The position numbers were made by a program, and so were the translations under genes. DNA of 64,000 nucleotides, taken from Nostoc sp. S4 (lineage in GTDB: Bacteria > Cyanobacteriota > Cyanobacteriia > Cyanobacteriales > Nostocaceae). The stretch covers positions 1 through 64,000 of the forward strand of contig JAQYWR010000042.1 of assembly GCA_029379225.1 (NCBI GenBank), in the 5' to 3' direction. This document shows, piece after piece, positions 13,017 to 31,807 of the stretch. Position 1 is the first letter of the stretch. Every line of letters starts with the position of its first letter. A model generated the notes under the pieces. The model had not been told where the DNA came from and made no database searches. It worked only from the letters and a program-made list of their open reading frames with translations.

Positions 13017-15698
13017 CTAGCGGGGATTGGACTTCCTTCTTTTACTGGAACTTTTGGAATTACCAGAAACTTGAGCAGTTTCTACGTCAGAGGCGGTAGG
13101 TACTTGCTCATTAACTAATTGTGCTTCTTCATCCACAATGAGCTTATCCGTTTGTACCTCTTCAAGAACTTCTTCAGAAATAGCTGACTTCTCTGCTTGA
13201 GCCTCATCGGGAGTTTTTTCTTGACTATCTAAAAGCCCTGCATACTTAATGCTTTCTAAGCCCGCTTGAAATACAGTATAGTCGTAAATTGTTTGATTCA
13301 TATCAATATCAAGCTTGTAATCACGACGTAAATTTTGGATTGCGTTCTTAACTGCTTCAATTTCCTTAATTGATTCATTCTCTATATTGCTCTCTAAAAT
13401 TCCCTCAATCTCATCAAGCAAAATAACACCATGCTCACGTCTTGCAGAAATAGGATGACGTGCAATAAAGTCCTTTTTTAGACGTTCTATCTTTTGAGAC
13501 AATCTTTCTCTAGTGAATTTCTGCTGGGCACTGCGCTGCATGATGTTCAACTTCTTAAACAAAATTTTGAAGTTCTGCTCAAAAATTCCTAGTGCATGAT
13601 TTTCACTTTCAGTCAATAAATTTTGTTTTTTTGACCACTCATTTACTACTCGAATAACGTTCCGAGCAAAGCCAGACTTACTAATTTCTAACTCTTTCTC
13701 AGGAAAGTCTTTTAGAGTTTGTTCTATAACATTAAGAATAGTTTGACCAGTAATCTTGCTTGATATTAATTCCTCAGTAAGGAATATAAGCTCTGTTTCT
13801 TCTAATTGAAGAAACTCTTGTAAATAAAGCTTTGTTGCTTGTATGCAAATTGGTAAGGGAATAATATCTTCTATTTCAAGTTGTGCTGTTACCTTGTCAT
13901 CTAAGCAGAATTCTTCTTTAAGATCGGCAAGTTGAAGAATAAACTTCTCTTTAAGTAAAGGTCTTCTATGTTGACCCCCTTTACCTAATAAATGCTTCTT
14001 AGCATCATTACCACTCTGATCGCTATCCAATAAAACTATGGCTGCGATTTCATCAGCGTGCCTTCCACAAGCTAGATAGACCATGTAGGGAATTTGTGAG
14101 GCTCCGCCAGAATCAACAATTGTAATTTGGTTTAAATCTAAAGTTTCTAAATTAGATACTCCATTGGCGCGAAGATATATTGCGGCTCCTGCAAGAAGAA
14201 TTTGATCGCCAATACCTTCGACCATTAAATTACAATTACCAATAAAAACCGTTTCGCCTATATCAGGCCCAATCGAGGATCTCAGAGGCTCATAACGGTG
14301 GATGGCAAAATCTTTGACTACGCGTGTTCCTTCATCCTCATTTCCCTTCTGTAAAACTCGAATACGCTCAGAATGGTTCTTATCAATTAAAAAAGGAGAG
14401 TGAGTTACGTAGACTACCTGAATTGGACGAGTTAAATGCGAACCAGGTTCGGGATTTGCGAACAAATCAAATACTCTAAGTAAGTCTTGTTGGGCTTGAC
14501 TAGATAGGTAAGCATCCGGTTCGTCCATCAACAGTATCTCAGTTTTCATTGGATCAGGATCATGAGAACGGTACTCAATAAAGTAGCTGAGAAAGTATTG
14601 TAACCCTTGACTTCTCTCATCAAATGAATATTCAGTTGCTGTCCTATCTGTTATAGTGAAAACTAAGTCATAGTCTCTTGCCATAACTTTTAAACAGAAA
14701 TTGCGATCTTGAACCCAATAGTTGGGAAAATTTAAATTAATGGCCAATCGATGATTTATATCCTTGATGATTGCGTTTGCATAACCTTGCATTCCATTTT
14801 TAATTGCTTTACTTAAATCCAGTAAAGAATTAATGTCAACTTTGGCAATTTTGCAGATTAATTTATAAGCTAAATAGAATTGTTTTTCTCTTCTTTCCTT
14901 CTCTGGGTCACTAAAACTGACTTCATCAAGTGCTAACATAATTGACTTTATTGCCTTAACTGCTTCATGGTCAATTTCTTCCCTATTCTCACCCCAGAGA
15001 ACGCGAACTTTAGTAATCAATTCTGGATTATCACTAAAAACGTCTAGTTCATCAACTATTTTGTTTCTTTGTTCTCGATCCAAGAGTTCAAATTTTCTAC
15101 CACCTAAATAATTCTCTTGACCCAACTGAACTAATTTTTTAATAGGAACACTTGAAGGAAGCGCAATACTTGACTCAATTCTAAACGTTCTTGGAAGAAG
15201 TTTATATAACTCAATAACCTGTTTTTCTTTAATTGGGTATGATATATATTCTCCTTGTTCAAATAAATAAATTGTTAAAGTATCAACATTATTACGAAAT
15301 ATAAATAATCTATCAAGATTAGGATTACGATAAATTTCTGGAATAATTTCTCTTAAGCTGTCCTGTTCAGGCTTAGACAGTTCCCATTCAGTACCAAAAT
15401 CAGGATATTTTAATTCATTCTGCTTAACTGTAAAAAAAGGAGAATAGCGGCAGAAATCGCTCCGCTCAATATCTTTGCCAGATATAGCCTTTTCAATAGC
15501 ACTTAACAAGTGAGACTTTCCAGATTCATTGGCACCAACAATTGTTGTAATTTTAGACTCTATGGAAACTTCAATATATGGGTAGAAAACATTGTCTATC
15601 AGTTCCCAAGGTTTACGCTTTACTTTGTTATTATGCTTTCTCAGGAAGTCGTCATTAAAGGATTTATAGAAACGGATGAAGACTGTCTTGAGATGCAT
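13017..15698 (-). CDS. OLD-family-like ATP-dependent nuclease (AAA ATPase plus TOPRIM-like domain)
   Basis: 893 residues. The ABC/SMC-like ATPase shows Walker A GANESGKS (residues 55-62), signature SFDERSQG (358-365), Walker B ILLMDEPDAYLS (388-399) and H-loop VVYVTHSP (428-435). A TOPRIM-like domain follows: the Glu in LMVEGIGDQ (about 494), IVDSGGASQ (527-535), and the acidic DSD at about 558-560. The long C-terminal part is helical with a charged tail. OLD proteins cut nucleic acid, and several act in phage defence. There is no UvrD-like helicase next to it, so a standalone (class 1-like) form is likely. It shares strand with brnT/brnA immediately downstream. Confidence 0.8.
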   Translation of the reverse strand: MHLKTVFIRFYKSFNDDFLRKHNNKVKRKPWELIDNVFYPYIEVSIESKITTIVGANESGKSHLLSAIEKAISGKDIERSDFCRYSPFFTVKQNELKYPDFGTEWELSKPEQDSLREIIPEIYRNPNLDRLFIFRNNVDTLTIYLFEQGEYISYPIKEKQVIELYKLLPRTFRIESSIALPSSVPIKKLVQLGQENYLGGRKFELLDREQRNKIVDELDVFSDNPELITKVRVLWGENREEIDHEAVKAIKSIMLALDEVSFSDPEKERREKQFYLAYKLICKIAKVDINSLLDLSKAIKNGMQGYANAIIKDINHRLAINLNFPNYWVQDRNFCLKVMARDYDLVFTITDRTATEYSFDERSQGLQYFLSYFIEYRSHDPDPMKTEILLMDEPDAYLSSQAQQDLLRVFDLFANPEPGSHLTRPIQVVYVTHSPFLIDKNHSERIRVLQKGNEDEGTRVVKDFAIHRYEPLRSSIGPDIGETVFIGNCNLMVEGIGDQILLAGAAIYLRANGVSNLETLDLNQITIVDSGGASQIPYMVYLACGRHADEIAAIVLLDSDQSGNDAKKHLLGKGGQHRRPLLKEKFILQLADLKEEFCLDDKVTAQLEIEDIIPLPICIQATKLYLQEFLQLEETELIFLTEELISSKITGQTILNVIEQTLKDFPEKELEISKSGFARNVIRVVNEWSKKQNLLTESENHALGIFEQNFKILFKKLNIMQRSAQQKFTRERLSQKIERLKKDFIARHPISARREHGVILLDEIEGILESNIENESIKEIEAVKNAIQNLRRDYKLDIDMNQTIYDYTVFQAGLESIKYAGLLDSQEKTPDEAQAEKSAISEEVLEEVQTDKLIVDEEAQLVNEQVPTASDVETAQVSGNSKSSSKRRKSNPR

Positions 15699-18120: not shown

Positions 18121-19485
18121 ATGATCTGCTGCCTAAATCCTAATTGCGAGAATCCCCAAAATCCTGACGGAGCAAATTTTTGTCTCAGTTGCGGGACAAA
18201 GTTGATACCCCTGCTGAGAAATCGTTACCGGATTAGCGCATTGTTAGGAAGAGGAGGGTTTGCACGCACATATATCGCAGAAGATATAGACAAGCTCAAC
18301 GAACAATGTGTTGTTAAGCAATTAGTTTTAAGTCAATTTTATAGCTCTCAAGGTACTGACACCCATAAAAAAGCAACTGAGTTGTTTGAGCGAGAGGCTA
18401 AACGTCTTAAAGAACTAGGACAACATCCACAAATTCCCAATTTATATGCATATTTTAAGGAAGGTGAATATCTATATTTAGTGCAGCAATTTATTGAAGG
18501 GGAAAATTTGTTGCAGGAGTTAAAACAGCAGGGAGTTTTTGATGAAGCTAAAATTCGATATTTTTTAAATGATTTATTATCTATACTGGTAGCGATACAC
18601 GAACAGGAGATAATTCACCGAGATATTAAGCCAGAAAATATTATTCGTCGTCGCAGCGATAATAAATTTGTACTAATTGATTTTGGAGTGTCAAAGCAAA
18701 AAAGGGATTCAAACACTGCACTGGGGACAATTATTGGTTCATTAGGTTATGCACCCATTGAGCAAATGCAATTGGGTAGAGTTTTTCCGTCTAGCGATAT
18801 CTACAGTTTAGGAATAACTTGCTTTCATCTGTTAACTAATATTTCTCCATCGAGTTTGTGGATCAAACAAGGCTATAGTTGGACTTCTAATTGGCAACAG
18901 CATTTAAAGCAACAAATAAGTCATGAATTAGAGTTAATTCTTGATAAGTTACTTCAAGAAAATAACGAACAGCGTTATCAGTCTGCACAGGCTATATTGC
19001 AAGACTTGAGTAATTTACCAACCTTAAGACATATATTACCTCCTACAGTCCTTTCGCCTTCCCGATTATTAGAAGTACAACCACAAGTTCAACACCAAAC
19101 AACTGGATTACCACTATTATCTAATAATAGATTATTGTTGGCAGCAATAATTGCTGGAACTGGTAGTTCATTCTTAGCGATCGCTCTGATTAGTTTCATC
19201 GGAACTACTTGGATTAGCTCAGGATTGTGGTTACTAATTTTAGGAGTGTTAGTATTTATTCAATCTCGCTCGTTGGTAGAAAAAACTTATTTAATTATTA
19301 TTGCTATCATAGCCAACTTACTTGTTGTCTTAAGTTTCAAAAATTTGCTAACTCAAAATCTTCTTCAATTTGGGATTAATGGACTATTGCTTGTAGTCTT
19401 GCTGATTCTTCTTGCTGGTTTTTTGACAGTTATTATTATGGGTATATCTGAACTTATTAACAAAATTATTTCTCAATATTTTTAA
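18121..19485 (+). CDS. Ser/Thr protein kinase with zinc ribbon and membrane domain
   Basis: 454 residues. An N-terminal zinc ribbon (Cys4, Cys9, Cys21, Cys24) precedes a Hanks-type kinase domain. The glycine loop is GRGGFA, with ATP Lys66, HRDIKPEN at 166-173 and DFG at 187-189, so it should be active. After a linker at about residue 315, four or five hydrophobic helices fill the last 115 residues. The zinc-ribbon plus kinase arrangement is typical of cyanobacterial kinases of the 4-Cys type. It lacks its own extracellular sensor. The membrane-anchored ligand-binding protein that follows on the same strand is a plausible partner. A short hairpin (19505-19521) follows the stop. Confidence 0.9.
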   Translation: MICCLNPNCENPQNPDGANFCLSCGTKLIPLLRNRYRISALLGRGGFARTYIAEDIDKLNEQCVVKQLVLSQFYSSQGTDTHKKATELFEREAKRLKELGQHPQIPNLYAYFKEGEYLYLVQQFIEGENLLQELKQQGVFDEAKIRYFLNDLLSILVAIHEQEIIHRDIKPENIIRRRSDNKFVLIDFGVSKQKRDSNTALGTIIGSLGYAPIEQMQLGRVFPSSDIYSLGITCFHLLTNISPSSLWIKQGYSWTSNWQQHLKQQISHELELILDKLLQENNEQRYQSAQAILQDLSNLPTLRHILPPTVLSPSRLLEVQPQVQHQTTGLPLLSNNRLLLAAIIAGTGSSFLAIALISFIGTTWISSGLWLLILGVLVFIQSRSLVEKTYLIIIAIIANLLVVLSFKNLLTQNLLQFGINGLLLVVLLILLAGFLTVIIMGISELINKIISQYF

Positions 19486-19772
19486 AAAATTAGAAATTAA
19501 AACTCATAGCAATTCGCTATGAAGATACATCTAATTATTTTAGAACATAGCAAATTTTCTCATAAAACCTCTGTGTACCTTGGCGCTAACCTCCGCGTAC
19601 TTTGGCGTTAAAAAAAGCTATAATCTGACGCAGTTATACAAAGAAATCGTATTATTAATATTATAATTATAATATATTTATCAACTTTTCTCCTGTTATT
19701 TAACTATTCTGATTAAGAATTCTTACTGTACCTTTATTTTTTAACAACTTTGTCTAAATAGGTGAATTATTC
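19486..19772. other. intergenic repeats between kinase and ligand-binding gene
   Basis: Contains a small hairpin (CATAGC/GCTATG at 19505-19521) and two imperfect copies of a CTCTGTGTACCTTGGCGCTAA-like unit at about 19570-19612, a common kind of Nostoc-type intergenic repeat. No gene is seen. Confidence 0.55.
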
Positions 19773-21230
19773 ATGACAAATAAAAAAGAAAACTTGAGAC
19801 TGCTTATTTCTCTGGGAATAGCTGGAGTAATGGTAGCAGTTATTTTTTGGTTAATTAGTAAACTTTCTTCTACTATCATACCATCATCAAACCCCATATC
19901 AACTTCATCTTCATTACCAAATAAACCTTCATTAATAAATTTGGGTACAAGGATTTTGGTAAAAGTACAAACTTCTCCAGAAAAAAGTGATGGAGTTAAA
20001 GCTTTTGGAGAAAAAGATTTCTCTACTGCTGTGGAAAAATTTACTACATCTTTGAAGAATAATCCCAACGATCCAGAAACTTTAATTTATTTAAACAATG
20101 CAAAAATTGCACGAGATAATTCAGAAACATTAAAAGTTGCTGTGATTGCACCACTTAACTTTGATGCTAATTTAGCAGAAGAAATTTTGCGTGGCGTAGC
20201 TCAAGCTCAAAATGAAGTTAATCAGCAAGGCGGAATTAATGGAAAGAAATTGCAAGTTGTAATTGCAAGTGTTGAGAATCAAGAAGATTTTCCAAAACTA
20301 GATAATGAATTAGTTGAAGACAAGAGCCTTGTAGCCACAGTAGGTGTGAGACAAAATGCCCCAGTTTATAATCAGAAAGGTTTGGTATTAGTCTTCCCGG
20401 TTGAGCGCCCCACTCAAGCTGAAAATCCAAAAAACTTAGAGCGAAATTCAGTAAATAGTCAGCAGAATACAGAAAATAATTACTTTTTTCATGTAAATCC
20501 GCTATATGAGAATTTAGTAGATACCCATGCTCGTTATATTGCTCGACAAGCAAGAAATATTGCTATTTGTGGTGATTATCTTAGCTCAGTAAATAATTCA
20601 ACTTCTTCATCTAATCCAGTACTTGTAGAACAGTACAGTCAAGCGCTGGAAAAATATGGCAGTAAAGTTATTAGTACGCCTTGCAATTTGGCAGATAAAA
20701 ATTTTGACCCTAAAGCTTTTGTGGATAAAGCTATAGAAACAGAAAACGTTAGTGGCTTTTTACTAATACCTTCAATCAGAAATATATATTTTGCCACTAA
20801 AGTTGCACAAGAGATTAAAGGCAGAAAACCACTGTTTGCTTCTGAAATTATGTACAGTCCAACAACTTTACAAAACGGCAAAGATGTCGAAGGAATGGTA
20901 CTACCCGTATATTGGCATCGTGATGCAAATAAAAATAACCCATTTGCAGAAAATGCTTTTCGGCTTTGGAATGCACGGGTAAATCAGAGAACAGCGGGAG
21001 CTTATGATGCGATGCAAGTAATTATCACTGGTTTGAAACGAGATAACACCCGCGAAGGTTTGCAAAAAGCACTGTCTAATCCTGATTTTTCAACTTCTGG
21101 AGCCACAGGAATGATTATGTTTTCACCTTCAGGCGAGCGTCAAGGAGAAGCTTTGCTAGTCAAAGTTGAGCGTTGCGAGCGTTGTTCTTCTGGGATTGGT
21201 TACGATTTTGCCCTCTTGAATAAGAAGTAA
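19773..21230 (+). CDS. membrane-anchored periplasmic ligand-binding protein (branched-chain amino acid receptor type)
   Basis: 485 residues. A single uncleaved-looking hydrophobic helix (about 11-32) anchors the protein. A Ser/Pro-rich linker and a TPR-like pair of helices (FGEKDFSTAVEKF, PNDPETLIYLNNAK) follow. From about residue 119 a periplasmic-binding domain of the LivJ/peripla_BP_6 class begins (VAVIAPLNFD, QGGINGKKLQVVIA). No transporter permease or ATPase genes are nearby. Its extracytoplasmic part matches that of the 987-residue fusion at 24646 in order and sequence. AGGTGA precedes the ATG. I infer a sensor, not a nutrient transporter subunit. Confidence 0.8.
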   Translation: MTNKKENLRLLISLGIAGVMVAVIFWLISKLSSTIIPSSNPISTSSSLPNKPSLINLGTRILVKVQTSPEKSDGVKAFGEKDFSTAVEKFTTSLKNNPNDPETLIYLNNAKIARDNSETLKVAVIAPLNFDANLAEEILRGVAQAQNEVNQQGGINGKKLQVVIASVENQEDFPKLDNELVEDKSLVATVGVRQNAPVYNQKGLVLVFPVERPTQAENPKNLERNSVNSQQNTENNYFFHVNPLYENLVDTHARYIARQARNIAICGDYLSSVNNSTSSSNPVLVEQYSQALEKYGSKVISTPCNLADKNFDPKAFVDKAIETENVSGFLLIPSIRNIYFATKVAQEIKGRKPLFASEIMYSPTTLQNGKDVEGMVLPVYWHRDANKNNPFAENAFRLWNARVNQRTAGAYDAMQVIITGLKRDNTREGLQKALSNPDFSTSGATGMIMFSPSGERQGEALLVKVERCERCSSGIGYDFALLNKK

Positions 21231-21305
21231 TTCCTAGCATTGATTGCTTAAAAAAGTTTGTACATATAGAAAATATGGATGATTTAAAAAATAGCCTCTT
21301 TTAGA

Positions 21306-22094
21306 CTAGATTTGCTCAATTTGGATATCACAATCTTTTCCGACACTAATAATACTATTTTCTGGACAAGCAATCCAATTACCTATAAATAGAGGTTCAG
21401 ATGCAATAATCACAGATTTTGGGAAAGTCGGATCGTCTCGTATCCAGTAAAGAGATGGCATCGGTGAACTGGTAGCAACACGAGAGGCTATAAGGCGATG
21501 TCCATCACTAAAGATTACATTGAGCGAGGCTTGTAGTTGATAGCGTTTTGCCATCTCTAAGAGCGTTAATAATGTGGTACGTAAAACATATTCTAGAGGT
21601 CGATGCTTGTTAATTTGATTGTGTGAAAGTAACAATGCAAAAATGTGTTCTGAGTCAGTAGTACCATTAATTATTTCATAAAAATCGGGAGTTAAAGTAC
21701 TGCGAATTTTTCTGTGTAATGTTTTGCGGAAATTATCAATTTGGCCATTGTGAATGAATAGTAATTGTTGATAGTTAAATGGCTGACAATTAGCAAAATC
21801 TACAGCTTGGCCTGGTGTGGCGCTACGGATATAAGCAAGTATACACTTTGATTCAATGTAACGGCTGAGACTGGGTAGGTTGATGTCATTCCAAATAGGT
21901 AGAGTATTTTTGTAGGTAAAAGGTTCGATATCTTTTTGATTATGATACCAACCCACACCAAAGCCATCTGCATTTACTATCCCAGAAGTCATTTCGCAGG
22001 GTTGATAACTCTGGGCTATCAATGAATGTTCTGGTTTATACAGAAGATATTCCAGAGAAATAGACGAACCGAGGTAGGCAAGTAAACGGGACAT
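21306..22094 (-). CDS. class-II glutamine amidotransferase-like protein, Cys2 replaced by Ser
   Basis: 262 residues of the EgtC/YafJ-like Ntn-hydrolase family. The conserved DGFGVGWYH, RSATPG and IHNGQIDNFR segments are present. The family nucleophile is Cys2 in the start MCR. Here the start reads MSRLLAY with codon TCC, so the position is Ser. No other Cys is near the N-terminus. Glutaminase activity is therefore doubtful, although Ser serves as nucleophile in other Ntn hydrolases. It lies convergent with the ligand-binding gene, and no ergothioneine genes (egtB/egtD) are nearby. Confidence 0.8.
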   Translation of the reverse strand: MSRLLAYLGSSISLEYLLYKPEHSLIAQSYQPCEMTSGIVNADGFGVGWYHNQKDIEPFTYKNTLPIWNDINLPSLSRYIESKCILAYIRSATPGQAVDFANCQPFNYQQLLFIHNGQIDNFRKTLHRKIRSTLTPDFYEIINGTTDSEHIFALLLSHNQINKHRPLEYVLRTTLLTLLEMAKRYQLQASLNVIFSDGHRLIASRVATSSPMPSLYWIRDDPTFPKSVIIASEPLFIGNWIACPENSIISVGKDCDIQIEQI

Positions 22095-22490
22095 GATTCA
22101 AGTATTTGCTCCCAATAGCTTTATAGAATAAGCTTTTTTACGGAGAATTAGCTGAATTTTTGATAAATTTGCGCTATTCTCGTTAGCAACTGCTGCCTCA
22201 TGTTACCTTATTGACCTACTGACCATCCAAAATATTTAGCTTACCAATGTTATTATCTAAACTTGTATTACACCAGTTTTCATGTATTTGAACCCCATCA
22301 GTTGTAGGGAAGAATGTTTGCTACTGAAAAATAGCAGTCATATTTGAGTTGTAAAATTACTCGTGGAGGCAGGTAATTGGTTTTTTAACGAATGATTTAG
22401 GATTGGTATATGTTTTGATGTAATTTTCAACTTCAGTGGTGAAATTGAATAAATATAAATAAATAAGTGAATGTTTGTCTAAGATTTTAT
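22095..22490. other. intergenic region, no feature recognised
   Basis: About 400 AT-rich bases between the divergent amidotransferase-like and nucleotidyltransferase genes, which must hold both promoters. I see no strong dyad, RNA or small gene. Confidence 0.5.
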
Positions 22491-23246
22491 ATGGATATTT
22501 CACCTTCTATCAGAACAATAGTTGAGCAACAGCCTTATCCGCTTTTATTTGCGACGATTAGCGGTTCTCACTTATATGGTTTTCCGTCACCCGATTCTGA
22601 TTATGACTTACGTGGCGTGCATATTTTATCAGTACCAGAAGTGGTGGGATTAAATACTGGGGCTGAAACTATTGAAATATCAGAGATTCGTGAATCTTTA
22701 GAAATTGATTTAGTAACTCACGACATCAAAAAATTCTTTTTGCTGCTCCTGAAAAAGAATGGTTATGTGTTGGAGCAACTGTATTCGCCTTTGATATTAA
22801 AAACTACACCAGAACATGAAGAATTAAAAATTATTGCCAAAAACTGTATTACTCGTCACCACAGTCATCATTACTTTGGATTTGCTGCAACTCAATGGAA
22901 ACTTTTTGCGAAAGAACAACCACATCGAGTCAAGCCGCTACTTTATATTTATCGAGTAATGTTGACTGGTATCTACCTGATGCAAACAGGAGTGGTTGAA
23001 GCCAATTTAGTTAAGCTCAATGAAGTTTTTAATTTACCATACATTCCTGATTTAATTGCCCAAAAGTTGGCAGAGGCAGAAAAGTCTAGTTTGTCAAATG
23101 TTGATGTAGCATTTCATCAACAAGAGTATGAACGATTGCGCGATCGCTTGCAAGAAGCGTATGAAGCAAGTACGCTACCCGAAGCACCTGCGGCGAAGGT
23201 AGCTTTACATAATTTACTCCTAAGATTAAGAGTTAAAAGTTATTAG
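22491..23246 (+). CDS. RlaP-like nucleotidyltransferase
   Basis: About 251 residues of the DNA-polymerase-beta-like nucleotidyltransferase superfamily. GSHLYGFPSPDSDYDLRG carries the GS motif and the first two catalytic Asp residues, and LEIDLVTHDIKKFF supplies the third. These and the following HHYFGFAATQWKLF helix fit the predicted RlaP (PF10127) family, linked in other bacteria to RNA-repair genes. No RNA ligase is nearby. The ATG at 22491 is chosen because the upstream start adds only a short unconserved stretch. Confidence 0.75.
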   Translation: MDISPSIRTIVEQQPYPLLFATISGSHLYGFPSPDSDYDLRGVHILSVPEVVGLNTGAETIEISEIRESLEIDLVTHDIKKFFLLLLKKNGYVLEQLYSPLILKTTPEHEELKIIAKNCITRHHSHHYFGFAATQWKLFAKEQPHRVKPLLYIYRVMLTGIYLMQTGVVEANLVKLNEVFNLPYIPDLIAQKLAEAEKSSLSNVDVAFHQQEYERLRDRLQEAYEASTLPEAPAAKVALHNLLLRLRVKSY

Positions 23247-23283
23247 TTAGGAGTTGTTAATTCATTCACTTGCAACTCCTAAC
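23246..23283. terminator. bidirectional terminator-like hairpin between convergent genes
   Basis: GTTAGGAGTTG and CAACTCCTAAC are perfect 11-bp arms with a 16-base loop, followed by CTAACTTTTTT. It begins at the nucleotidyltransferase stop codon and lies just past the DUF423 stop on the other strand. Confidence 0.7.
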
Positions 23284-23294
23284 TCCTAACTTTT

Positions 23295-23675
23295 TTACAA
23301 CTTTAAATTCCAAGCAGTAAAAGCTAAAGCACCCCAGCCAGCAAGAAAAGCTACACCACCTAGTGGTGTAATTGCTCCTAAGGATTTTATACCAGTTAAG
23401 CTCAGCGCATATAAACTTCCTGAGAAAATAGCAATACCAATGATAAATAACCATCCACTGGCTACAAGAGTGGGTTGAGGAAATTCGCTGCGACTAATTA
23501 GTAATGCTACTAAAAAAAGTGCCAGAGCATGATACATTTGATAACGAGCGCCAGTTTCAAAAATTTCTAGCGATCGCTCACTAATTTTTTCCCGCAAAGC
23601 ATGGGAAGCAAAAGCACCAGCAGCAACTGACAAACCACCTAAAACAGCGGCTACGCTCAAGAAAATTTGCGTCAT
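23295..23675 (-). CDS. DUF423 family membrane protein
   Basis: About 126 residues with four hydrophobic helices. The opening VLGGLSVAAGAFASHAL and GARYQMYHALALFLVAL motifs are diagnostic of DUF423 (YwdK-like) inner-membrane proteins, whose role is unknown. A start 13 codons upstream (23714) falls inside short direct repeats (TTAGTCAT units), so I favour the ATG at 23675. Confidence 0.85.
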   Translation of the reverse strand: MTQIFLSVAAVLGGLSVAAGAFASHALREKISERSLEIFETGARYQMYHALALFLVALLISRSEFPQPTLVASGWLFIIGIAIFSGSLYALSLTGIKSLGAITPLGGVAFLAGWGALAFTAWNLKL

Positions 23676-23769
23676 TAGACTTAGCCGTAAGTTAGTAAGA
23701 TAGTCATTAGTCATTGGTTATTGGTCATTAGTGAATAACAAATAACAAAAGACAAATGACAAATAACAG

Positions 23770-24249
23770 TTAGACATCAAAATGATATGATACAGCCCCT
23801 TCTTCATTCACTTTGAAGTTTGCATTGAATTCTTTAGCTTTTTCATCTAAATATTGCCTAGCGTCGGCTGGAGGTAGTTGTGATTGCATGGCAAAGCCTA
23901 AAACAGTCACGCGTCCATGATTTTGTTGTAGCATCTCATAAAAAAGAGATTGCAGGCGATCGCTACGTTGTCGATCGAGTGCCTTTTTCTCTTGCCGACT
24001 TTGACGATACAATCCCAATGCTAACCATGCACCCAGTGTAAGGCTAGGGACACCAAAAATTAGACCACTAACAGCAGTATTATCATCTTGATAAGTCGCA
24101 TTTGGTGCAGAAAAATCATACGCATCTTTTACTGGTATATACACCTTACGCGTAGCAAATTTGTCAATTGCTGCTGATGCTGATAGCGTTAAAAACATGA
24201 ATCCGAGTGTCAGTAGCCAACCAGCAGCCAATTTTTCAGCAGTTTTCAT
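23770..24249 (-). CDS. conserved cyanobacterial membrane protein, unknown function
   Basis: 159 residues. The first hydrophobic helix (about 8-27) ends in SASAAIDKF, which could be a signal peptidase site or a membrane anchor. A second helix lies at about 60-82 (SGLIFGVPSLTLGAWLALGLY). The remainder is cytosolic: a basic helical stretch, then a small domain (GRVTVLGFAMQSQLPPADARQYLDEKAKEF) resembling the helical regulatory units often seen in cyanobacterial proteins. I do not recognise a named family. It reads in the same direction as the DUF423 gene, with short repeats between. Confidence 0.65.
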   Translation of the reverse strand: MKTAEKLAAGWLLTLGFMFLTLSASAAIDKFATRKVYIPVKDAYDFSAPNATYQDDNTAVSGLIFGVPSLTLGAWLALGLYRQSRQEKKALDRQRSDRLQSLFYEMLQQNHGRVTVLGFAMQSQLPPADARQYLDEKAKEFNANFKVNEEGAVSYHFDV

Positions 24250-24645
24250 AGTTCCACTTCAGATTTGAACTTTGCTAGAAATTCTAACCTGACTTTCTCA
24301 GAGGTTCCAGTATATCAATCTACTCCCAAGGAAAGTTTTTTAGCGATAGCTACGCTAACGCTTTCATGCAAACACACCTGACTTTTTGGCGTATCTTACT
24401 TAAAAAAACAAGGTTATTAGGCGCGTACAAGATACTCTAGTAATCATGTAATATTTTAATATACTTAATTCCCTATAAAAATTCGGCGTTACACAATTTC
24501 AGGATGATTGTGGGACAGGCATTTTGCCTGGTTCAACAATTTCAGGGCGGGTTAGATTTTCATACTACAAAATCATAAACATCATCTCGTAGAGATATAA
24601 AACTAAAAATTAAACGTCAAATACTGTAGAACCAGCAAAATCCGA
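24250..24645. other. intergenic region before the ATPase-sensor fusion gene
   Basis: About 400 bases between divergent genes. It contains a short hairpin (CAGGCA/TGCCTG, 24516-24530) of a kind repeated in Nostoc-like intergenic DNA, and otherwise AT-rich sequence. No gene is seen. Confidence 0.5.
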
Positions 24646-27609
24646 ATGTCTCCAAACTCACAAAATCCTTACGGCATAAACCCTTATATTATTGGTACTC
24701 CTATTGGCAAGAAACACCAACTTTTCGGGCGAGAAACTCTGTTAAAAACTATAGAAGATAGTTTGCAACAGAATGCAAAATTTATTCTATTATACGGTCA
24801 GAGACGTATAGGTAAATCTTCTCTACTCAAAAATATTCCCCTTTTTATATCTCAAGATCAATATCTCTTTGTACCTTGCGATTTTCAAGAACACCATCAT
24901 TCAAGTCTAGGTGAAATTATATATGCGATCGCTAGGGAGATTTTTCAGCCTCTTGACTTAGACACGAGTATACTACAACCCTTATTAAATGCAGATTTAA
25001 TAACCATTCGCCGAATTTTAAACAATAGAGTCTTACCACAAGTTTACGATAAACTAGATAATAAAAAGCTGGTGTTATTGTTAGATGAGTTTGATGTCGT
25101 CACTCAAAATGATACAGAACAAGCTGTTGAATTATTGCATCTTTTAGAAAATTTAGTTAGAAGACAAGAAGAATTATTTGTAATTGCAGTAGTTGGGCGA
25201 TACCTAGATTCCATGCCAAATCTGGTTCAATCATTTAGAGGTGGAATATATCAAGAAATAGGTTTGCTTGATTCCGAAAGTACCAAACAACAGATTACTC
25301 AACCAGCTAATAATATTTTACAATATCAAGAAAAGACGATAGAAGAAATTATAAAATTTTCTGCAGGACATCCATATTATACCCAAGTTTTATGCCATGC
25401 AATTTTCAATCAAGCAAGGGATGAAAGTTCTTCGATAGTTATACCAGCCTCTGTAAATGATGCTGTAAACCAAGCAATTGAAAATGCTGAAGGCGGATTA
25501 GCTAGTATTTGGGATGGGCTAAGTGTCTGCGAGCAAGTAGTATTTTCAGCAGTTGCTGATGCTCAAAAACGAAATACCTCTGAAAACCCTTTAAAGCTAC
25601 TTGAAGAATATGGGCTAGTGCTAACAAATTCTTTAGAAGAAGCTATACAGCTATTAATTAATAAGGGTTTTTTAGATAGAAAACCAGTTAAGGTAAAAGT
25701 AGAATTTGTCTGTCTGTGGTTACTACAATGTCATCAATTGAGGGCTGAAATCAGGAGTTTGGAGACGCTAGAAGAACAAAATGTCAACCAACTATTATTT
25801 GTAGCTCGTAATTGTTGGATAGGAGATAAGCAGCAGGATGGATTGGATATTTATGAACAGGTTCTCAAACTAAATCCTAATCACTTCAGCACTATAGTAG
25901 AGCTAGCAGAAAAATACTTGCAGAAGGAAAATTTTGACAAAGCTTTAAAACTTTATGGACGAGCTTATAAACTAGATCAAATACGCTATCAAGAAGAATT
26001 GATAAAGGCATTAGATTTCTATGGATACTACTTGATAAATCAAAAAAAATATATATCAGCAAAGCAGCAGTATCAAAAGATTTTACAGATTCAACCTGAA
26101 AATAGTTTAGCTAAACAAAAACTAGCGGAAATAAGAGATTTTAAAAATAATAGAAATCATCATAACAGCAACTTTATACAGCAAGTTTTTAGGTCACGTT
26201 TATCAAAGATAATTATAGTATTTATTAGTGCTATTAGTATAATATTTTTTAGTTTTCTCTTTAATAATTGTTTGCTTAAAGAAAAACTTTTTTTGATTAA
26301 TTGTACTGAAAATGTTAAAATTAGTAAAGGCGAGCGTACTTTATTTCCAGATCTAAATAACCGCGATCTTGACAATGTTAAAAATGGTATTGATAAGTTT
26401 TATGCTAAAGATTACATAAGTGCTGAAGAACACTTTAAAGCAGCTATCAATAATAATCATGATGACCCAGAGATACTAATTTACCAAAATAATGCTCGTG
26501 CGATTCAACAAAGTAAGCCTTTAACCTTAGCAGCGGTAATACCAGCAACAAACAGAACCGATGTTGCTTTAGAAATGTTACGTGGTATGGCACAGGCGCA
26601 AAATCAATTTAACCAACAAGGCGGATTCAAAAATCGATTACTAGAAATTATAATTGCTGACGATGAGAACCAAGGAGATAAAGCAAAACTAGTAGCTAAG
26701 AAACTAGTAAATGATAAATTACTAGGAGTCATAGGACATAATTCTAGCGATACTACTAAGGAAGCTTTACCAACATATGAAGAAGCTAATTTAGCAGTCA
26801 TCTCACCGACTAGCAGCAGTACAGAGTTTCAAAGCCGAGTCTTTTATCGAACCATAAATTCAAATAAGGTAACTGGTACAACTTTAGCTAAATATGCTTG
26901 GAAAGTAAAATTAAAAAAAGTAGTAATTTTCTGTAATCCTAAAGATACATATAGTAACACGATGAGAGAAGAGTTTAGGGTTAAATTTATGGCAAATTAC
27001 GGTGCTGAAATAGTGGGTGTGGACGAAAAGTGCATTAATTTAGCCGATCCAAACTTTAATATAGACGAAGAGGTGAAAAAGATTGTTTTAAAAAATCAGG
27101 CTCAGGCAATTGTATTATTTCCGGACACACAGAATCTTAAAAATGCTGGTAGAATTGCCAAAGCTCAGAAAGTGTTGATAGACGAGCAGCAACAAAAAGG
27201 AAATAATATTCAAAAACTTAAGTTATTAGGAGGTGATGTTCTCTATAATTACGGCTTTTTAAAAGAATATAATGATGCTTTAGAAGGTTTAGTTTTATCT
27301 CCACCTTGGTTTCGGGAAGCTAAACAAGCAAAAAACTTTGCTCAAACAGCAAAAGACCTATGGGGAGGAAAAGAAGTAAGTTGGCGCACTGCAACTAGCT
27401 TTGACGCTACCCAGGCTTTTATTGGAGCTTTCAAATTATCCTCGAATCCATCTCAGAAAACAGTTTTGGACAATTTACTAAAAGTCAAAATTTCATCAAA
27501 TAATACTTCTGGAGACGAACTTGTATTTGATAAAAATACTAGAGAAATGAAAAGAGAAGAAATACTTATTACGGTTCAAAACGGTAGATTTGTTCTCATA
27601 CCGAAATAG
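24646..27609 (+). CDS. STAND-like ATPase-TPR-transmembrane-periplasmic ligand-binding fusion
   Basis: 987 residues in one chain. An archaeal-type AAA/STAND ATPase comes first, with Walker A GQRRIGKSS at 51-59 and Walker B LVLLLDEFD at about 142-150, and a sensor-region GHPYYTQVLCHAIF. A winged-helix-like segment (about 290-375) and TPR-like helices (about 390-490) follow. One transmembrane helix spans about 521-543. The outer part repeats the layout of the 19773 protein: short TPR pair, then a peripla_BP_6-type domain from about residue 624 (AAVIPATNRTDVAL, FNQQGGFKNRLLEIIIADD). I read it as a transmembrane receptor that couples ligand binding outside to ATPase switching inside. Each domain assignment is firm, but the function is inference. 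Confidence 0.8.
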   Translation: MSPNSQNPYGINPYIIGTPIGKKHQLFGRETLLKTIEDSLQQNAKFILLYGQRRIGKSSLLKNIPLFISQDQYLFVPCDFQEHHHSSLGEIIYAIAREIFQPLDLDTSILQPLLNADLITIRRILNNRVLPQVYDKLDNKKLVLLLDEFDVVTQNDTEQAVELLHLLENLVRRQEELFVIAVVGRYLDSMPNLVQSFRGGIYQEIGLLDSESTKQQITQPANNILQYQEKTIEEIIKFSAGHPYYTQVLCHAIFNQARDESSSIVIPASVNDAVNQAIENAEGGLASIWDGLSVCEQVVFSAVADAQKRNTSENPLKLLEEYGLVLTNSLEEAIQLLINKGFLDRKPVKVKVEFVCLWLLQCHQLRAEIRSLETLEEQNVNQLLFVARNCWIGDKQQDGLDIYEQVLKLNPNHFSTIVELAEKYLQKENFDKALKLYGRAYKLDQIRYQEELIKALDFYGYYLINQKKYISAKQQYQKILQIQPENSLAKQKLAEIRDFKNNRNHHNSNFIQQVFRSRLSKIIIVFISAISIIFFSFLFNNCLLKEKLFLINCTENVKISKGERTLFPDLNNRDLDNVKNGIDKFYAKDYISAEEHFKAAINNNHDDPEILIYQNNARAIQQSKPLTLAAVIPATNRTDVALEMLRGMAQAQNQFNQQGGFKNRLLEIIIADDENQGDKAKLVAKKLVNDKLLGVIGHNSSDTTKEALPTYEEANLAVISPTSSSTEFQSRVFYRTINSNKVTGTTLAKYAWKVKLKKVVIFCNPKDTYSNTMREEFRVKFMANYGAEIVGVDEKCINLADPNFNIDEEVKKIVLKNQAQAIVLFPDTQNLKNAGRIAKAQKVLIDEQQQKGNNIQKLKLLGGDVLYNYGFLKEYNDALEGLVLSPPWFREAKQAKNFAQTAKDLWGGKEVSWRTATSFDATQAFIGAFKLSSNPSQKTVLDNLLKVKISSNNTSGDELVFDKNTREMKREEILITVQNGRFVLIPK

Positions 27610-27803
27610 AGTTTTGAAAAACTTAACAATAACAATGTAAATTAGTCAATCAATATGAGTATAATGAAAGTCGTGCCTAACAACGATAAATAACAAGAAA
27701 TAAAAGTTTTTCTTATTTCTGATTATGCTTTGTGCTGATATAGCTTATGGGTATCTAACTAAAAAATTACAAGCTGCTTATTTGACATATCGCAGATATT
27801 ATC

Positions 27804-29261
27804 ATGATGCAACTACAATCTCAGAGAAACCCTTATGTTATCGGGCGTCCGATTAGCGAACCGGAAATATTTTTTGGGCGACAGAAGCAATTAGGGTTTA
27901 TTGAAGAAAATCTGAGACAAGGTGAAAAAGTTATATTACTGCATGGTCAACGACGCATAGGCAAGTCATCTCTACTTCAAAATATCCCTAAACTTGTCAA
28001 ACTAGATAACTCTGCTTTTGTTAGCTTTGATTTAGAATATCATAGCCAAGAAAAACTAGAAAACCTTTTAGAGAATTTAGCAGAAACTCTTGTTGAACAA
28101 TTAGAAATACCTCCAGAAAAAATATCAATACCAAACGCTCAACAGATACAAGAAGAAAAAGAAATTTTTTGTAATAGTTTTTTACCTCAAATTTACGAAC
28201 ATCTTCCCGAGAAGAATTTAGTATTACTTTTAGACGAATTTGATGCTTTAGACAATAAACATATCGGTGTAGAACTTGAATCATTATTCAAGCAATTAAA
28301 AAACATTGTCCATAAAAATCCCAAATTATTTGTGATAATCTTTGCTGGGAGAAAACCAGCAGATATCTCAAATTTGCTCGAAATATTTCCCAAAGTACCG
28401 ATCGCTGAAGTTGGATTACTAGATAATGAAAGTATTAAACAGCTGATTATCGAACCTGTTGGAGGTTCTTTGAGTTACGAACCAAAAGCGATACAAGCAA
28501 TTGCAGATTTATCGGCAGGACATCCTTATTTCATTCAAATTTTATGTTTTGCGGTTTTCAGTAGAGCTAGAGAACTGCAAAAATCGGAAGTTGTTGAAGA
28601 AGATGTAAAAAATATTATCGATAAGGCAGTTGAACTGGCAGAAGCGGGTTTTGCATGGTACTGGGAGGCTTTATCTATACTAGAAAAGGTAGTTTTTTCG
28701 GCGGTAGCTGAGGCGCAAAAAATAGCTAGTGAAAAAAATGACCAAGTGCTAGAAAAAGACCCATTGATGGTACTTAAAAGTTATCATAATGTGTTGTCAA
28801 GAGATTTGCTAGAAAAATTAATCAAAGAACTAGCATTAAAGGGTTTTTTAAACGAGCAAGGCAATAAAGTCAAAATAGAATTAGTCCAGCGTTGGTTAAT
28901 ACAACGTCACCCCTTATGGCACGAAATTAGGGAATTAGAGAAATTAGATAAACAAGAAGTGAGTTATACCTCCGAAACCTTTAATGAAATACCTTTAATC
29001 AGCCAGAATCAAAACCAAAATACTATTATTCAAAGCACTGGTTGGAATCAAGATTTCCAGAAGTTGGAACAAAATATATCTTCTGTCAAATCTTCTAAAA
29101 CTAAAATTCATTTAAAAACAGAGGAAATCTGGTTAGTTTTGGGAATTCTTTTTTTAGGAGTAGCTGCGATCGCTTCCTTCATCATATTTATTTATACTCC
29201 CAATCACAGCAATAATCAAAAACAAAACTCAGTACCAAATGCGACATCTCCCAGCCAATAG
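27804..29261 (+). CDS. STAND-like ATPase with C-terminal membrane anchor
   Basis: 485 residues, a clear paralogue of the ATPase half of the preceding gene: NPYVIGRPISEPEIFFGR, Walker A GQRRIGKSSLL, Walker B LVLLLDEFDAL, GHPYFIQILCFAVF. The winged-helix-like region is retained (DLLEKLIKELALKGFL). After a polar linker there is one transmembrane helix (about 440-464) and a short polar tail, so it lacks the TPRs and the outer ligand-binding domain. It lies about 195 bases downstream of the fusion gene on the same strand. Tail-anchored ATPases of this type have no known role here. Mixed assembly with the fusion protein is an inference from shared sequence and position. Confidence 0.75.
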   Translation: MMQLQSQRNPYVIGRPISEPEIFFGRQKQLGFIEENLRQGEKVILLHGQRRIGKSSLLQNIPKLVKLDNSAFVSFDLEYHSQEKLENLLENLAETLVEQLEIPPEKISIPNAQQIQEEKEIFCNSFLPQIYEHLPEKNLVLLLDEFDALDNKHIGVELESLFKQLKNIVHKNPKLFVIIFAGRKPADISNLLEIFPKVPIAEVGLLDNESIKQLIIEPVGGSLSYEPKAIQAIADLSAGHPYFIQILCFAVFSRARELQKSEVVEEDVKNIIDKAVELAEAGFAWYWEALSILEKVVFSAVAEAQKIASEKNDQVLEKDPLMVLKSYHNVLSRDLLEKLIKELALKGFLNEQGNKVKIELVQRWLIQRHPLWHEIRELEKLDKQEVSYTSETFNEIPLISQNQNQNTIIQSTGWNQDFQKLEQNISSVKSSKTKIHLKTEEIWLVLGILFLGVAAIASFIIFIYTPNHSNNQKQNSVPNATSPSQ

Positions 29262-30160: not shown

Positions 30161-31807
30161 TTAATGACTAATAATTGTTGATACTGGCTGCAATTTTGTT
30201 TGATAAACTTTGACTAATCTATCAATACCTTTGAAGCGATAATCTCCCATTTCTTGGAAGTCCGATGGTTGTGAAAGCATTGCATAAGTGGCTTCACTAA
30301 TCACGCATTCACTCGGAGGACAAACTCCTTCCATGCGAGCTGCCAGATTAATTGTTGCGCCTAATGCTGTATAGTCTACCCTTTGCGAACTACCAACATC
30401 TCCAACGACCGCCTTACCACTATTAATTGCAATGCGTAATTGCAGCGGTTCTTGCCAAAAATTATTGGCATTGAGATGTTTCAGACGAGCCAGCATTCCC
30501 TTAGCAGCAGTTACGGCGCGATCGGCGTGATCTATTTGCGGTTCTGGAGCGCCAAAAAATGTCATGATACAATCGCCAATATATTTATCTAAAGTGCCGC
30601 CGCAAGTAAACACTTCTTTGAGCATTTCTTCAAATAAATTATTTAATAGTTGGGCAATCGCAGTTGGTGTTAATCGTTCAGAAATTGCTGTAAACCCGAC
30701 TAAATCCGCAAACAAAATACTGATTTCACTTTCTGCTGGCGCTAAACGACCATCTGGCAACGCGCCTACAGATATCAACTGCTGTACAACTGCTGGGGAA
30801 TGATAGCGTTCTAGTCGATGACGAATCATTTCTTCAGTTTTAAGTTTCTCTACCAGTAGCCAACGCTGGACGCTGGAAGCCACAAGGTTTGCTAAAGCTG
30901 AAAAAAAGCTCAGTTCTTCCTCGCCTTCATTTGCCCAATGGTAAGAAGAAAGATTGGCATCGGCATAAAGAACGCCGACAACTTTATTTTCATCCCATAA
31001 AGGCACTGCCATTGCACTGCGAATGCCTTTGACTAAAATACTTTGTTCGCTAGCAAACCGTTCATCCTGATGAGTATCACCAGTTTGAATAACGACTTTT
31101 TCGGCAAATACTTTTTGACAGATACTACGACTAATCCAACTACCATCGGCAGAGAGATGTTGCTGTTGGGAAACATTTCTAGTAGCAGCATTCACTAACT
31201 CTAAGTGCCCACGACCATTGACATCAATTAATAATGCCAAGCGATCGATACTATCAAGGTAACGAAATACAACTTGTTGCACCTGGGAAAAAATCTCTTC
31301 TATAGACGCTGCCGCACAGAGATTTTTCGCGATATCAACTAAGTCTTTAAGACGGGCAATAGTTTTATCTTTATTGGTGATGTTGCCATCTTTACTATCT
31401 GCTGCAATCCATTGCTGTTGTAATTGTTCAACATTGTGAAGGATTGTTCTTTGCTCATTAGTATCCGAAGTTGACGCATACTCTGGTGTTGATGTCGATT
31501 GTGAAGCAGGATTTGTCAGCAGCACTACTAGGTTAACATTACCCAACCAAACGACATCGCCGTGATGCAACTCTTGGGGAGAGTTTACCAGATATTTATT
31601 GACTTGCGTGCCGTTTTTGCTGCCCAAATCTTCAATAGTCCACATCCCCTCGGTCGTTTTTAAAATCCGGGCATGGTTGCGGGATACTCCAGCAAAAGGT
31701 AAGTACAAATTACATTCTGGCAAACGACCAATCGTAAATACATCTTGGTCAACTGCGATCGCTGTCTCGGTATCTCCCTCTTGTAGGCGTAGGGTGAGTT
31801 CAGTCAT
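30161..31807 (-). CDS. FHA-GAF-class III adenylate cyclase
   Basis: 548 residues. An N-terminal FHA domain (IGRLPECNLYLPFAGVSRNHARI, about 25-50) binds phosphothreonine. A linker, then a GAF domain (about 165-320, with AVPLWDENKVVGVLYADANLS) follows. The C-terminal cyclase holds both metal Asp (FADLVGFT and YIGDCIMTFFG), the purine-contact Lys (TLDKYIGD) and Thr in DYTALG, and the transition-state Asn/Arg in INLAARM. The Lys/Thr pair is the arrangement seen in cyanobacterial CyaC-type adenylate cyclases, so cAMP is the likely product. FHA suggests control by a Ser/Thr kinase. Confidence 0.9.
   Translation of the reverse strand: MTELTLRLQEGDTETAIAVDQDVFTIGRLPECNLYLPFAGVSRNHARILKTTEGMWTIEDLGSKNGTQVNKYLVNSPQELHHGDVVWLGNVNLVVLLTNPASQSTSTPEYASTSDTNEQRTILHNVEQLQQQWIAADSKDGNITNKDKTIARLKDLVDIAKNLCAAASIEEIFSQVQQVVFRYLDSIDRLALLIDVNGRGHLELVNAATRNVSQQQHLSADGSWISRSICQKVFAEKVVIQTGDTHQDERFASEQSILVKGIRSAMAVPLWDENKVVGVLYADANLSSYHWANEGEEELSFFSALANLVASSVQRWLLVEKLKTEEMIRHRLERYHSPAVVQQLISVGALPDGRLAPAESEISILFADLVGFTAISERLTPTAIAQLLNNLFEEMLKEVFTCGGTLDKYIGDCIMTFFGAPEPQIDHADRAVTAAKGMLARLKHLNANNFWQEPLQLRIAINSGKAVVGDVGSSQRVDYTALGATINLAARMEGVCPPSECVISEATYAMLSQPSDFQEMGDYRFKGIDRLVKVYQTKLQPVSTIISH

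Follow-up and report, generated by a model that had tools for sequence, protein, structure and literature searches.

We consider it likely that the 64,000-nucleotide stretch of Nostoc sp. S4 DNA analysed here (the window) encodes two members of a cyanobacterial transmembrane receptor family, built on one flytrap module whose ligand would switch the attached output. By sequence comparison, this module forms one homologous group that follows a single predicted membrane helix and either is joined to varied outputs or occurs as a separate protein, whose gene often lies just downstream of one for a membrane kinase. At least six predicted outputs are carried on the one homologous sensor module.

Architecture of the two putative receptors in the window

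Four open reading frames, at 18121-19485, 19773-21230, 24646-27609 and 27804-29261, are present on the forward strand. The first (454 aa) is a Ser/Thr protein kinase, the kinase half of a split pair, with a Pfam Pkinase match over residues 36 to 292 (1.5e-38). It starts with a zinc-ribbon-like 4-Cys prefix (18127-18204; NF045510, 40 bits against a cut-off of 24), followed by a Hanks kinase with its catalytic motifs, which places it among the cyanobacterial 4-Cys-prefix Ser/Thr kinases. The HRD, Lys, Asn and DFG positions are invariant in all 10 aligned kinases. The model PDLC04051, named PD-T4-6 in PADLOC, matched nearly the entire kinase with 454 bits, but the same name is borne by many models of diverse kinases. 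We did not adopt this defence-kinase label as a function. C-terminal to the catalytic domain, the hydropathy profile rises to four hydrophobic peaks at residues 339, 362, 391 and 422, and no sensor domain was found on the kinase. Four such peaks after residue 300 also occur in 26 of the 35 free-standing kinases of 430 to 540 aa in our first survey, and three occur in 4 of them.

The sensor half of the pair (19773-21230; 485 aa; Peripla_BP_6 in Pfam, 9e-18) is a membrane-anchored stand-alone protein. Its AlphaFold model (pLDDT 83.5, pTM 0.81) contains an N-terminal membrane helix at residues 4 to 31 (19782-19865) and a short TPR-like helical stalk at residues 69 to 114 (19977-20114), with confident helices at 69-79, 83-96 and 101-114. 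The LivJ-type binding domain follows at 20127-21215, and the best Foldseek match to Leu/Ile/Val-binding proteins has an E value of 9e-17 and a TMt of 0.76. The earlier note, made from the DNA letters, had described just this: a sensor alone in the membrane after a kinase that has membrane helices but no sensor. It also called the sensor split from the kinase; the two are indeed separate genes, but the direction is unsupported, because our trees do not tell splitting from fusion.

The 987-aa product of 24646-27609 combines a STAND-like ATPase, TPRs, one membrane helix, a TPR stalk and a LivJ-type binding domain, as judged from Pfam and the structure model. Pfam assigns it AAA_16 (3.2e-10, residues 25-175), nSTAND1 (6.4e-7, residues 24-243; 29.8 bits against a cut-off of 27.1), TPR and Peripla_BP_6 (6.9e-26). 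With nSTAND1 above its cut-off and the Walker A/B motifs readable as GQRRIGKSS and LVLLLDEFD, the core at 24718-25377 qualifies as a STAND-type ATPase. Next come a cytoplasmic TPR linker (25831-26154; TPR matches at 399-496, model helices at 396-503) and a single predicted membrane helix at residues 522 to 540 (26209-26265; hydropathy peak 2.6, model helix 520-556), which has three K/R before and two after it. The extracytoplasmic module (26320-27597) consists of ISKGE, a short TPR stalk and a LivJ-type binding domain with the S-x-T ... SPTS anchor. The earlier note had likewise described a sensor joined to an ATPase through one helix. The model's pTM of 0.52 makes the relative placement of the domains unreliable.

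A sensorless STAND-like ATPase is encoded next to it at 27804-29261 (485 aa; AAA_22, 3.2e-9), with a C-terminal membrane helix at about 29136-29192 (hydropathy peak at residue 445). Its nSTAND1 score (25.0) is below the cut-off of 27.1, and its nSTAND6 score equals the cut-off of 27.7. Sequence identity between the two ATPases is 42% (E 3e-84), the tandem partner is conserved, and STAND receptors are usually encoded in such pairs. Within 24646-29261, the sensing ATPase would work with this membrane-anchored partner.

The two outer modules, for which a common order of short TPR pair and LivJ-type domain had been noticed, align with 113 identical residues in 377 (E 4e-32), and the alignment spans the TPR pair as well as the binding domain. 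Both binding domains are LivJ-type, with Peripla_BP_6 over its cut-off and Foldseek matches to LivJ-type proteins.

One sensor module, many outputs

The window's genome contains ten sensor modules of this flytrap family, one of them truncated; nine modules from this genome align end to end, with the TPR stalk preceding the binding domain, and kinase, STAND, CHAT and TIR versions are all present. The two forms described in the earlier note do exist, but they undercount both the modules and the outputs. Members at E<=1e-20 were found in 121 of 386 genomes of the phylum, with just 4 candidates scored per genome, and members at E<=1e-40 in 27 of 30 genomes of the window's family, where nearly all candidates were scored. 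For the locus survey, 100 loci were hand-picked among the matches listed in the phylum-wide search, 20 were picked from the window-family search, mostly for open-frame lengths new to the set, and 79 were the best 79 of at least 560 and lean towards relatives of the window sensor. Sensors below 150 bits were excluded from the counts, and the ORFs dropped in this way are binding proteins of the window's own genome. Two identical ORFs were removed for the helix and output counts over 240 sensors and retained in the kinase-neighbour count over 142.

Among the 240 distinct sensor ORFs, 93 carry a fused kinase, STAND, AAA_35, CHAT, caspase or TIR domain, and Pfam identified kinase, CHAT, TIR, STAND/AAA, caspase, AAA_35 and NB-ARC as outputs. 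Exactly one membrane helix is predicted in 91 of the 93 fused receptors, the arrangement of ATPase or kinase and binding domain across one helix for which a search of other cyanobacterial genomes had been proposed. Around the helix of these 91, K/R residues are more frequent before it in 63, equal in 15 and fewer before it in 13. The stand-alone sensors have a single N-terminal hydrophobic peak in 139 of 141 cases. On the sensor tree, the output changes 24 times for 9 labels, and the stalk signature [DNG]PE-[IV][YFW]-NN is found in 211 of the 240 sensors. These results support the idea of a modular system with interchangeable outputs, in which signalling itself is what we infer. An 'ISxGE' motif after the membrane helix, suggested as a family mark by the own-genome set, was rejected, as the pattern occurs in just 86 of 221 sensors.

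CHAT domains keep the active-site His in 22 and the Cys in 23 of 23, caspases keep both in 9 of 9, and kinases have HxDxKxxN in 26 and DFG in 29 of 31. A simple Walker A pattern was matched by 18 of 22 STAND domains (of the other four, two are truncated at the N-terminus, and in L013 and L065 another residue replaces the Lys) and by none of the 8 AAA_35 domains, so that some outputs may be inactive. A full-length TIR fusion turned up in one genome when 145 family genomes were searched at E<=1e-60, with 7 candidates scored in each. In one 1895-aa caspase protein, the sole helix found precedes the WD40 repeats, which would place these repeats outside.

The split arrangement also recurs. In the clade of the window sensor, a kinase gene lies 10 to 288 bp upstream in 28 of 28 loci, at least 27 of them distinct (L145 and L174, whose contigs have the same length of 46718, are probably one contig), so the neighbourhood of kinase and sensor, which the earlier note had wanted checked elsewhere, is kept. 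It is possible to read the two genes as neighbours without a functional link, since for 79 of the 142 stand-alone sensors the 3 kb upstream on the same strand contain no kinase gene, but we give this a slim chance. The proximity is direction-specific: a kinase within 3 kb is upstream on the same strand in 63 of the 142, downstream in 1 and on the other strand in 3, in a sample chosen by score and rich in window relatives (28 of the 63 pairs). Moreover, the pair recurs in separate clades of the sensor tree, and kinase and sensor are directly fused in 31 proteins. The sensor-kinase distance correlation of 0.89 over the 63 pairs is uncorrected for shared ancestry, and we do not count it as interaction evidence. 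By analogy, the sensor of the 18121-21230 pair would touch the membrane part of the kinase and control it in the manner of GlnH-GlnX-PknG; GlnH is of another binding-protein class.

Receptors, transport subunits or ligand-free partners

The outer domains could be ordinary substrate-binding proteins of an ABC importer with its permease elsewhere, the fusions merely tethering or regulating uptake. Fold and profile are indeed those of Leu/Ile/Val-binding proteins, and LIV-type permeases are encoded on other contigs of the genome, for instance alongside the binding proteins at L009 (contig C39) and L010 (C62). However, BPD_transp_2 (PF02653) occurs at 9 places in the genome and at none on the window's contig (C106), and eight neighbour proteins tested between 15.9 and 34.2 kb include no permease: seven match other families and 23770-24249 matches none. 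In a tree of 59 sensors and 29 cyanobacterial binding proteins, one branch with 100% SH-aLRT separates the two groups. Of 127 sensors, this tree includes 59, at most 9 per label in addition to the window's, with short rows omitted; its binding proteins are 26 of 48 collected and 3 of 4 own-genome ones, L009 being omitted for its very long branch in another tree. Its alignment had stalk columns that are absent from binding proteins; a sensor tree from binding-domain columns alone likewise puts all sensors on one side. With the sensor profile, the 48 binding proteins score at most 89 bits and the best own-genome one 91, and no other survey ORF falls between 91 and 150; a LIV-type permease was seen near 28 of the 48 within a short flanking stretch, and the transport role of the 48 is assumed. 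Neither permeases alongside nor a grouping with transport subunits, two marks of a LIV-type substrate-binding subunit (HAAT), was found for the window sensors. The two observations that the earlier note had named as refuting its reading, kinase and sensor genes apart elsewhere and outer domains that group with true transport subunits, were not made. Together with the TPR stalk ahead of the binding domain and the covalent link to an output through one predicted helix in nearly all fused proteins, this makes the importer quite improbable, and the lack of a permease on C106 and the tree led us to reject the import-subunit assignment, in line with the earlier note, which had seen no permease genes nearby and thought import unlikely. 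A common outer part on very different inner machines looks like a set of receptors rather than nutrient importers. It is hardly credible that the fused outputs captured unrelated binding proteins independently, leaving no receptor family: sensor identity is low (the eight other modules of this genome are 26 to 34% identical to the window sensor) and the comparison set holds cyanobacterial binding proteins alone, but all sensors are on one side of the tree and the stalk signature is common to most, and on these two grounds convergence was rejected.

The window's split sensor raises a different question. The S-x-T ... SPTS anchor, which we take to be equivalent to LivJ Ser79/Thr102, is kept in the fused STAND receptor, as in nearly all other sensors, and gone from the split sensor and its relatives. 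Scored by alignment columns (a regular-expression count was set aside, as it called clear positives lost), all 19 window-clade rows lack S-x-T and 12 of the 19 lack the later SPTS-like Ser; both pocket serines are present in each of the 31 remaining rows of that alignment. The window sensor may thus bind something else or nothing, and could be a degenerate, ligand-free subunit that supports the kinase structurally or acts as its brake. The relatives L179-L188 fit this, their sensors being 46 to 50% and their kinases 58 to 68% identical to the window's. On the other hand, the sensor frame is open and beside the kinase in every window-clade locus, its fold is predicted at high confidence, and the pocket was judged from one part, so that another ligand is possible. 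It seems that the ligand-free state, although a real possibility, is rather doubtful.

For the receptor reading that we prefer, a small ligand, probably amino-acid-like where S-x-T ... SPTS is kept, would close the flytrap. This closure would move the TPR stalk and the helix and alter the pairing or clustering of the cytoplasmic outputs, which would switch on phosphorylation by the kinase, oligomerisation of STAND or the activity of CHAT, caspase or TIR.

Known systems and biological meaning

The window pair resembles the actinobacterial GlnH-GlnX-PknG system (PMC6069109, PMC9769921), which is reported to have an outside binding protein, a four-helix membrane part and a Ser/Thr kinase from linked genes and to serve signalling, not import. 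Gene order and the four C-terminal hydropathy peaks of the kinase reproduce this layout; however, the four-helix part there is the separate GlnX, whereas in the window these helices are part of the kinase, and the binding protein is anchored by a membrane helix of its own. Single fusions, kinase-ANF and caspase-ANF/Peripla_BP_6, are already in print. Ser/Thr kinase fusions with ANF_receptor in Nostoc/Anabaena (alr0344, Ava_2791 and CwatDRAFT_0902 are listed; PMC1262709, PMC2176072) are, by description, the same kind of domain pair as our fused kinase receptors, but in the passages concerned they figure as single architectures, linked neither to a split pair nor to versions with STAND, CHAT, TIR or caspase. 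A caspase inside and a ligand-binding domain outside are likewise found in cyanobacterial (ortho)caspases that carry ANF_receptor or Peripla_BP_6 (PMC2853523, PMC3501461, PMC8283722, PMC7475262); 8 caspases with Peripla BP_6 are listed in PMC8283722 and ligand-triggered activation is proposed in PMC7475262, but in the relevant passages the binding domains appear as caspase accessories and not as one sensor module common to other outputs. The actinobacterial conflict 'System 4' (PMC7159879) shares a caspase effector, membrane helix and extracellular PBP, but the PBP, in the part describing it, is one of up to 50 C-termini on a fixed caspase, whereas here the sensor is fixed and the effector varies. 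Animal class C and natriuretic peptide receptors (ANF_receptor fold) also place a flytrap ectodomain on a membrane protein, and our sensors matched mGluR, GABA-B and GC-A by profile or structure; membrane part and outputs differ, and the fold alone is common. Full-text literature searches returned no prior description of one shared module swapped among outputs.

For the majority of Ser/Thr kinases, STAND ATPases and caspase-like proteases in cyanobacteria, we know of no activating signals. A common extracytoplasmic sensing domain makes the signal question directly testable for kinases, STAND ATPases and caspases, and the split kinase pair offers a clean two-gene test case. We tentatively suggest a dedicated cyanobacterial receptor superfamily, in which a constant flytrap, of the fold seen in animal glutamate and natriuretic-peptide receptors, may read small molecules in the periplasm or the shared filament space and trigger either kinase cascades or outputs of immune or death type (STAND pairs, CHAT, caspase, TIR). 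If true, cell-surface danger receptors would have a bacterial counterpart, for which amino-acid-like leakage from damaged neighbours is a plausible signal. The family suggests that ligand recognition at the cyanobacterial surface may feed immune/death-type effectors, a design that is usually thought of as typical of animals and plants.

Anatomy of the window genes and of the sensor module

Open reading frames are present for all four genes listed in the earlier note, and Pfam assigns them, in order, to a Ser/Thr kinase (18121-19485, +, 454 aa), a Peripla_BP_6 protein (19773-21230, +, 485 aa), an AAA/STAND-TPR-Peripla_BP_6 protein (24646-27609, +, 987 aa) and a second AAA/STAND-like protein (27804-29261, +, 485 aa). 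In line with the likeness claimed in the earlier note, the second and third proteins have homologous outer parts, and the homology takes in the TPR pair (113/377 identical, E 4e-32); the two ATPases share 42% identity. The kinase carries the cyanobacterial 4-Cys prefix and four hydropathy peaks C-terminal to its catalytic domain. In the AlphaFold model of the split sensor (pLDDT 83.5, pTM 0.81), residues 4-31 form a helix, from which a linker of low confidence leads to three stalk helices and then the binding domain; Foldseek groups this model with Leu/Ile/Val-binding proteins. The model of the 987-aa receptor (pLDDT 79.5, pTM 0.52), whose relative domain placement is untrustworthy, contains the ATPase, the TPRs, a long helix at 520-556 and the binding domain; its best solved-structure matches are amino-acid-binding proteins (TMt up to 0.86). 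The anatomy of the window genes and of the receptor family is firm.

Two other window genes deserve mention. The 893-aa AAA_15/AAA_21 protein at 13017-15698 (-) has a weak OLD-type TOPRIM match and is matched by the AriA, Old and GajA models of PADLOC, making it a possible OLD-family defence nuclease; a single gene, for a TypA/BipA GTPase, separates it from the kinase. Two genes downstream of the STAND pair, 30161-31807 (-) encodes an FHA-GAF-nucleotide cyclase protein.

Thirteen places in the window's genome encode Peripla_BP_6. Four are binding proteins of usual size (contigs C39, C62, C67 and C70), with LIV-type permeases adjoining those of C39 and C62. The remaining nine share the window's sensor module and can be aligned over its whole length, stalk to C-terminus. 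Two belong to split kinase/sensor pairs (window, C28), and the others are a kinase fusion (C78), three STAND fusions (window, C47, C71), a CHAT fusion (C98), a TIR fusion (C41) and a sensor interrupted by the contig end (C47). Searching with the nine-module alignment added a tenth, truncated sensor on another C71 STAND protein (L016:10377-12551). Its match is confined to positions 4-172 of the 421 in the profile, and this receptor is perhaps decaying towards a sensorless partner.

Distribution, topology and exchange of outputs

The nine-module profile matches 121/386 genomes of the phylum (E<=1e-20, four candidates scored per genome) and 27/30 genomes of the window's family (E<=1e-40, nearly all candidates scored). 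We surveyed 210 stretches, comprising the window, 10 own-genome regions, 100 regions, 79 named loci (the best of at least 560, all labelled cyanobacteria save one labelled Gracilibacteria) and 20 further regions, and 206 of them contain a sensor of >=150 bits. Among 240 distinct sensor ORFs, 141 stand alone, and the others are fused to kinase (31), CHAT (23), STAND (22), caspase (9), AAA_35 (7) or TIR (1) domains or belong to a mixed remainder of six; nSTAND1 domains additionally occur on two caspase members (1895 and 3057 aa). These six types comprise an NB-ARC fusion (L255), a double sensor directly behind a CHAT gene (L100) and four proteins of 611-623 aa (L244, L245, L246 and L247) with no clear membrane helix between the N-terminus and the sensor, which are possibly cytoplasmic relatives of the receptors. 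Their N-terminal domain of ~110 aa looks helix-turn-helix-like by eye, and no Pfam match to it was found in the three scanned (L244, L245, L247). The full-length TIR fusion occurs in the window's own genome alone among 145 family genomes (seven candidates scored per genome). The CHAT fusions of L237 and L239 are 1239 and 1234 aa long, and the latter has two Peripla_BP_6 stretches.

Exactly one hydrophobic peak separates output from sensor in 91/93 fused receptors. Of these 91, 63 have more K/R on the output side of the peak than on the sensor side, 15 have equal numbers and 13 have fewer. The single peak and the mostly higher K/R count make a cytoplasmic output and an external sensor the probable arrangement. 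Among the stand-alone sensors, 139/141 have a single N-terminal hydrophobic peak.

An alternative to the receptor reading is that the outer domains are transport subunits. In agreement with the earlier claim that no permease is close by, BPD_transp_2 is absent from the window's contig. Against the sensor profile, 48 cyanobacterial binding proteins score <=89 bits; the highest score of an own-genome binding protein is 91, and the range from 91 to 150 bits is otherwise empty of survey ORFs. A tree of 59 sensors and 29 binding proteins splits the two groups with 100% SH-aLRT support, and a tree on binding domains alone places 127 sensors on one side and four own-genome binding proteins on the other (96%). 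The binding proteins compared are cyanobacterial throughout, and a permease lies in the short flanking stretch of 28 of the 48 loci. Within this scope, the sensors are set apart from transport subunits, and the receptor reading is strong.

When each tip of the sensor tree is given one of nine labels (an output, or split, solo or transport protein), 24 changes are required, against a minimum of 8 and a shuffle mean of 81.7, which indicates that the output labels are clustered yet repeatedly exchanged, with detail limited by the quick method and long branches. Well-supported branches force at least three changes for CHAT and at least two each for caspase, kinase, STAND and AAA_35, and the TIR sensor groups with five CHAT sensors (100%). 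The active residues of CHAT (His 22/23, Cys 23/23) and caspase (His 9/9, Cys 9/9) are kept, as are the kinase motifs HxDxKxxN (26/31) and DFG (29/31). A simple pattern finds Walker A in 18/22 STAND domains (two misses are cut N-terminally, while L013, from the window's genome, and L065 have Lys replaced) and in 0/8 AAA_35 domains. The TIR domain matches a Thoeris ThsB1 model (160 bits).

Split kinase pairs and paired STAND genes

A free-standing kinase lies <=3 kb upstream on the same strand of 63/142 stand-alone sensors, 46 of them within 300 bp, whereas it is downstream of 1/142 and on the other strand at 3/142. The window clade, to which the sensor 19773-21230 belongs, accounts for 28 of the 63. 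The pair is conserved in 28/28 of its loci (window, L145-L147, L165-L188), from genera including Nostoc, Desmonostoc, Scytonema, Mojavia and Komarekiella; with this clade left out, a kinase precedes 35/114. Kinase and sensor lie 288 bp apart in the window (19486-19772), against 10-206 bp, most commonly 73, in the other 27 loci. In the first survey, 17/32 kinase-linked sensors have a PBP_like_2 ORF <=6 kb away (about 100 aa long in just two cases), suggesting that one kinase is served by several sensors; window-clade stretches showed no such ORF. Two PBP_like_2 proteins flank the C28 sensor. Those at L015:6948-8024 and L015:9800-10843 begin MSQKNE, as does the sensor between them, and one kinase precedes all. 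The kinase-less sensors L148, L159 and L161 adjoin a gene (on the other strand in L159) for a protein of ~240-255 aa whose common stretch ends WxWLWGI/V and which may be another split partner.

STAND receptors have a further gene of the set within about 250 bp at 13/15 loci. It encodes a second receptor of this type, a STAND protein without sensor or, at L013, a sensor interrupted by the contig end; L070, on a contig of 4.1 kb, and L091 lack such a neighbour. The window's own STAND clade has the sensorless partner in the window, L078, L081 and L146 (incomplete there), and one membrane helix ends it in the three complete cases. By analogy with paired plant NLRs, we infer that such a pair would combine a sensing and a helper ATPase.

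Earlier descriptions and the ligand pocket

Flytrap receptors and single fusions are already known. In the portions of the sources available, kinase-ANF fusions (PMC1262709, PMC2176072), caspases with ANF or Peripla_BP_6 (PMC2853523, PMC3501461, PMC8283722, PMC7475262), an actinobacterial caspase-TM-PBP architecture (PMC7159879) and the GlnH-GlnX-PknG system (PMC6069109, PMC9769921) are described, and the shared module is absent from those of PMC8195603, PMC10907252 and PMC7517822. In the main texts of the open-licence literature searched, we found no earlier description of one sensor common to all these outputs, held constant while immune- or death-type outputs are swapped, of the anchorless split kinase pair or of paired STAND genes.

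Across output classes, the Ser of an S-x-T/S pattern is kept in 120/127 aligned sensor rows and a later SPTS-like Ser in 117/127. In an alignment built on the window sensor, both are present in 31/31 rows outside the window clade; within the clade, the first is gone in 19/19 rows, next to a six-residue gap, and the later one in 12/19, including the window and its nearest relatives, with 7/19 keeping it. We take these two positions to correspond to the amino-acid anchor of LivJ and metabotropic glutamate receptors; on this likeness, most of the sensor family may bind amino-acid-like ligands, and the window's split sensor, having lost the motif, must either bind in another way or bind nothing.
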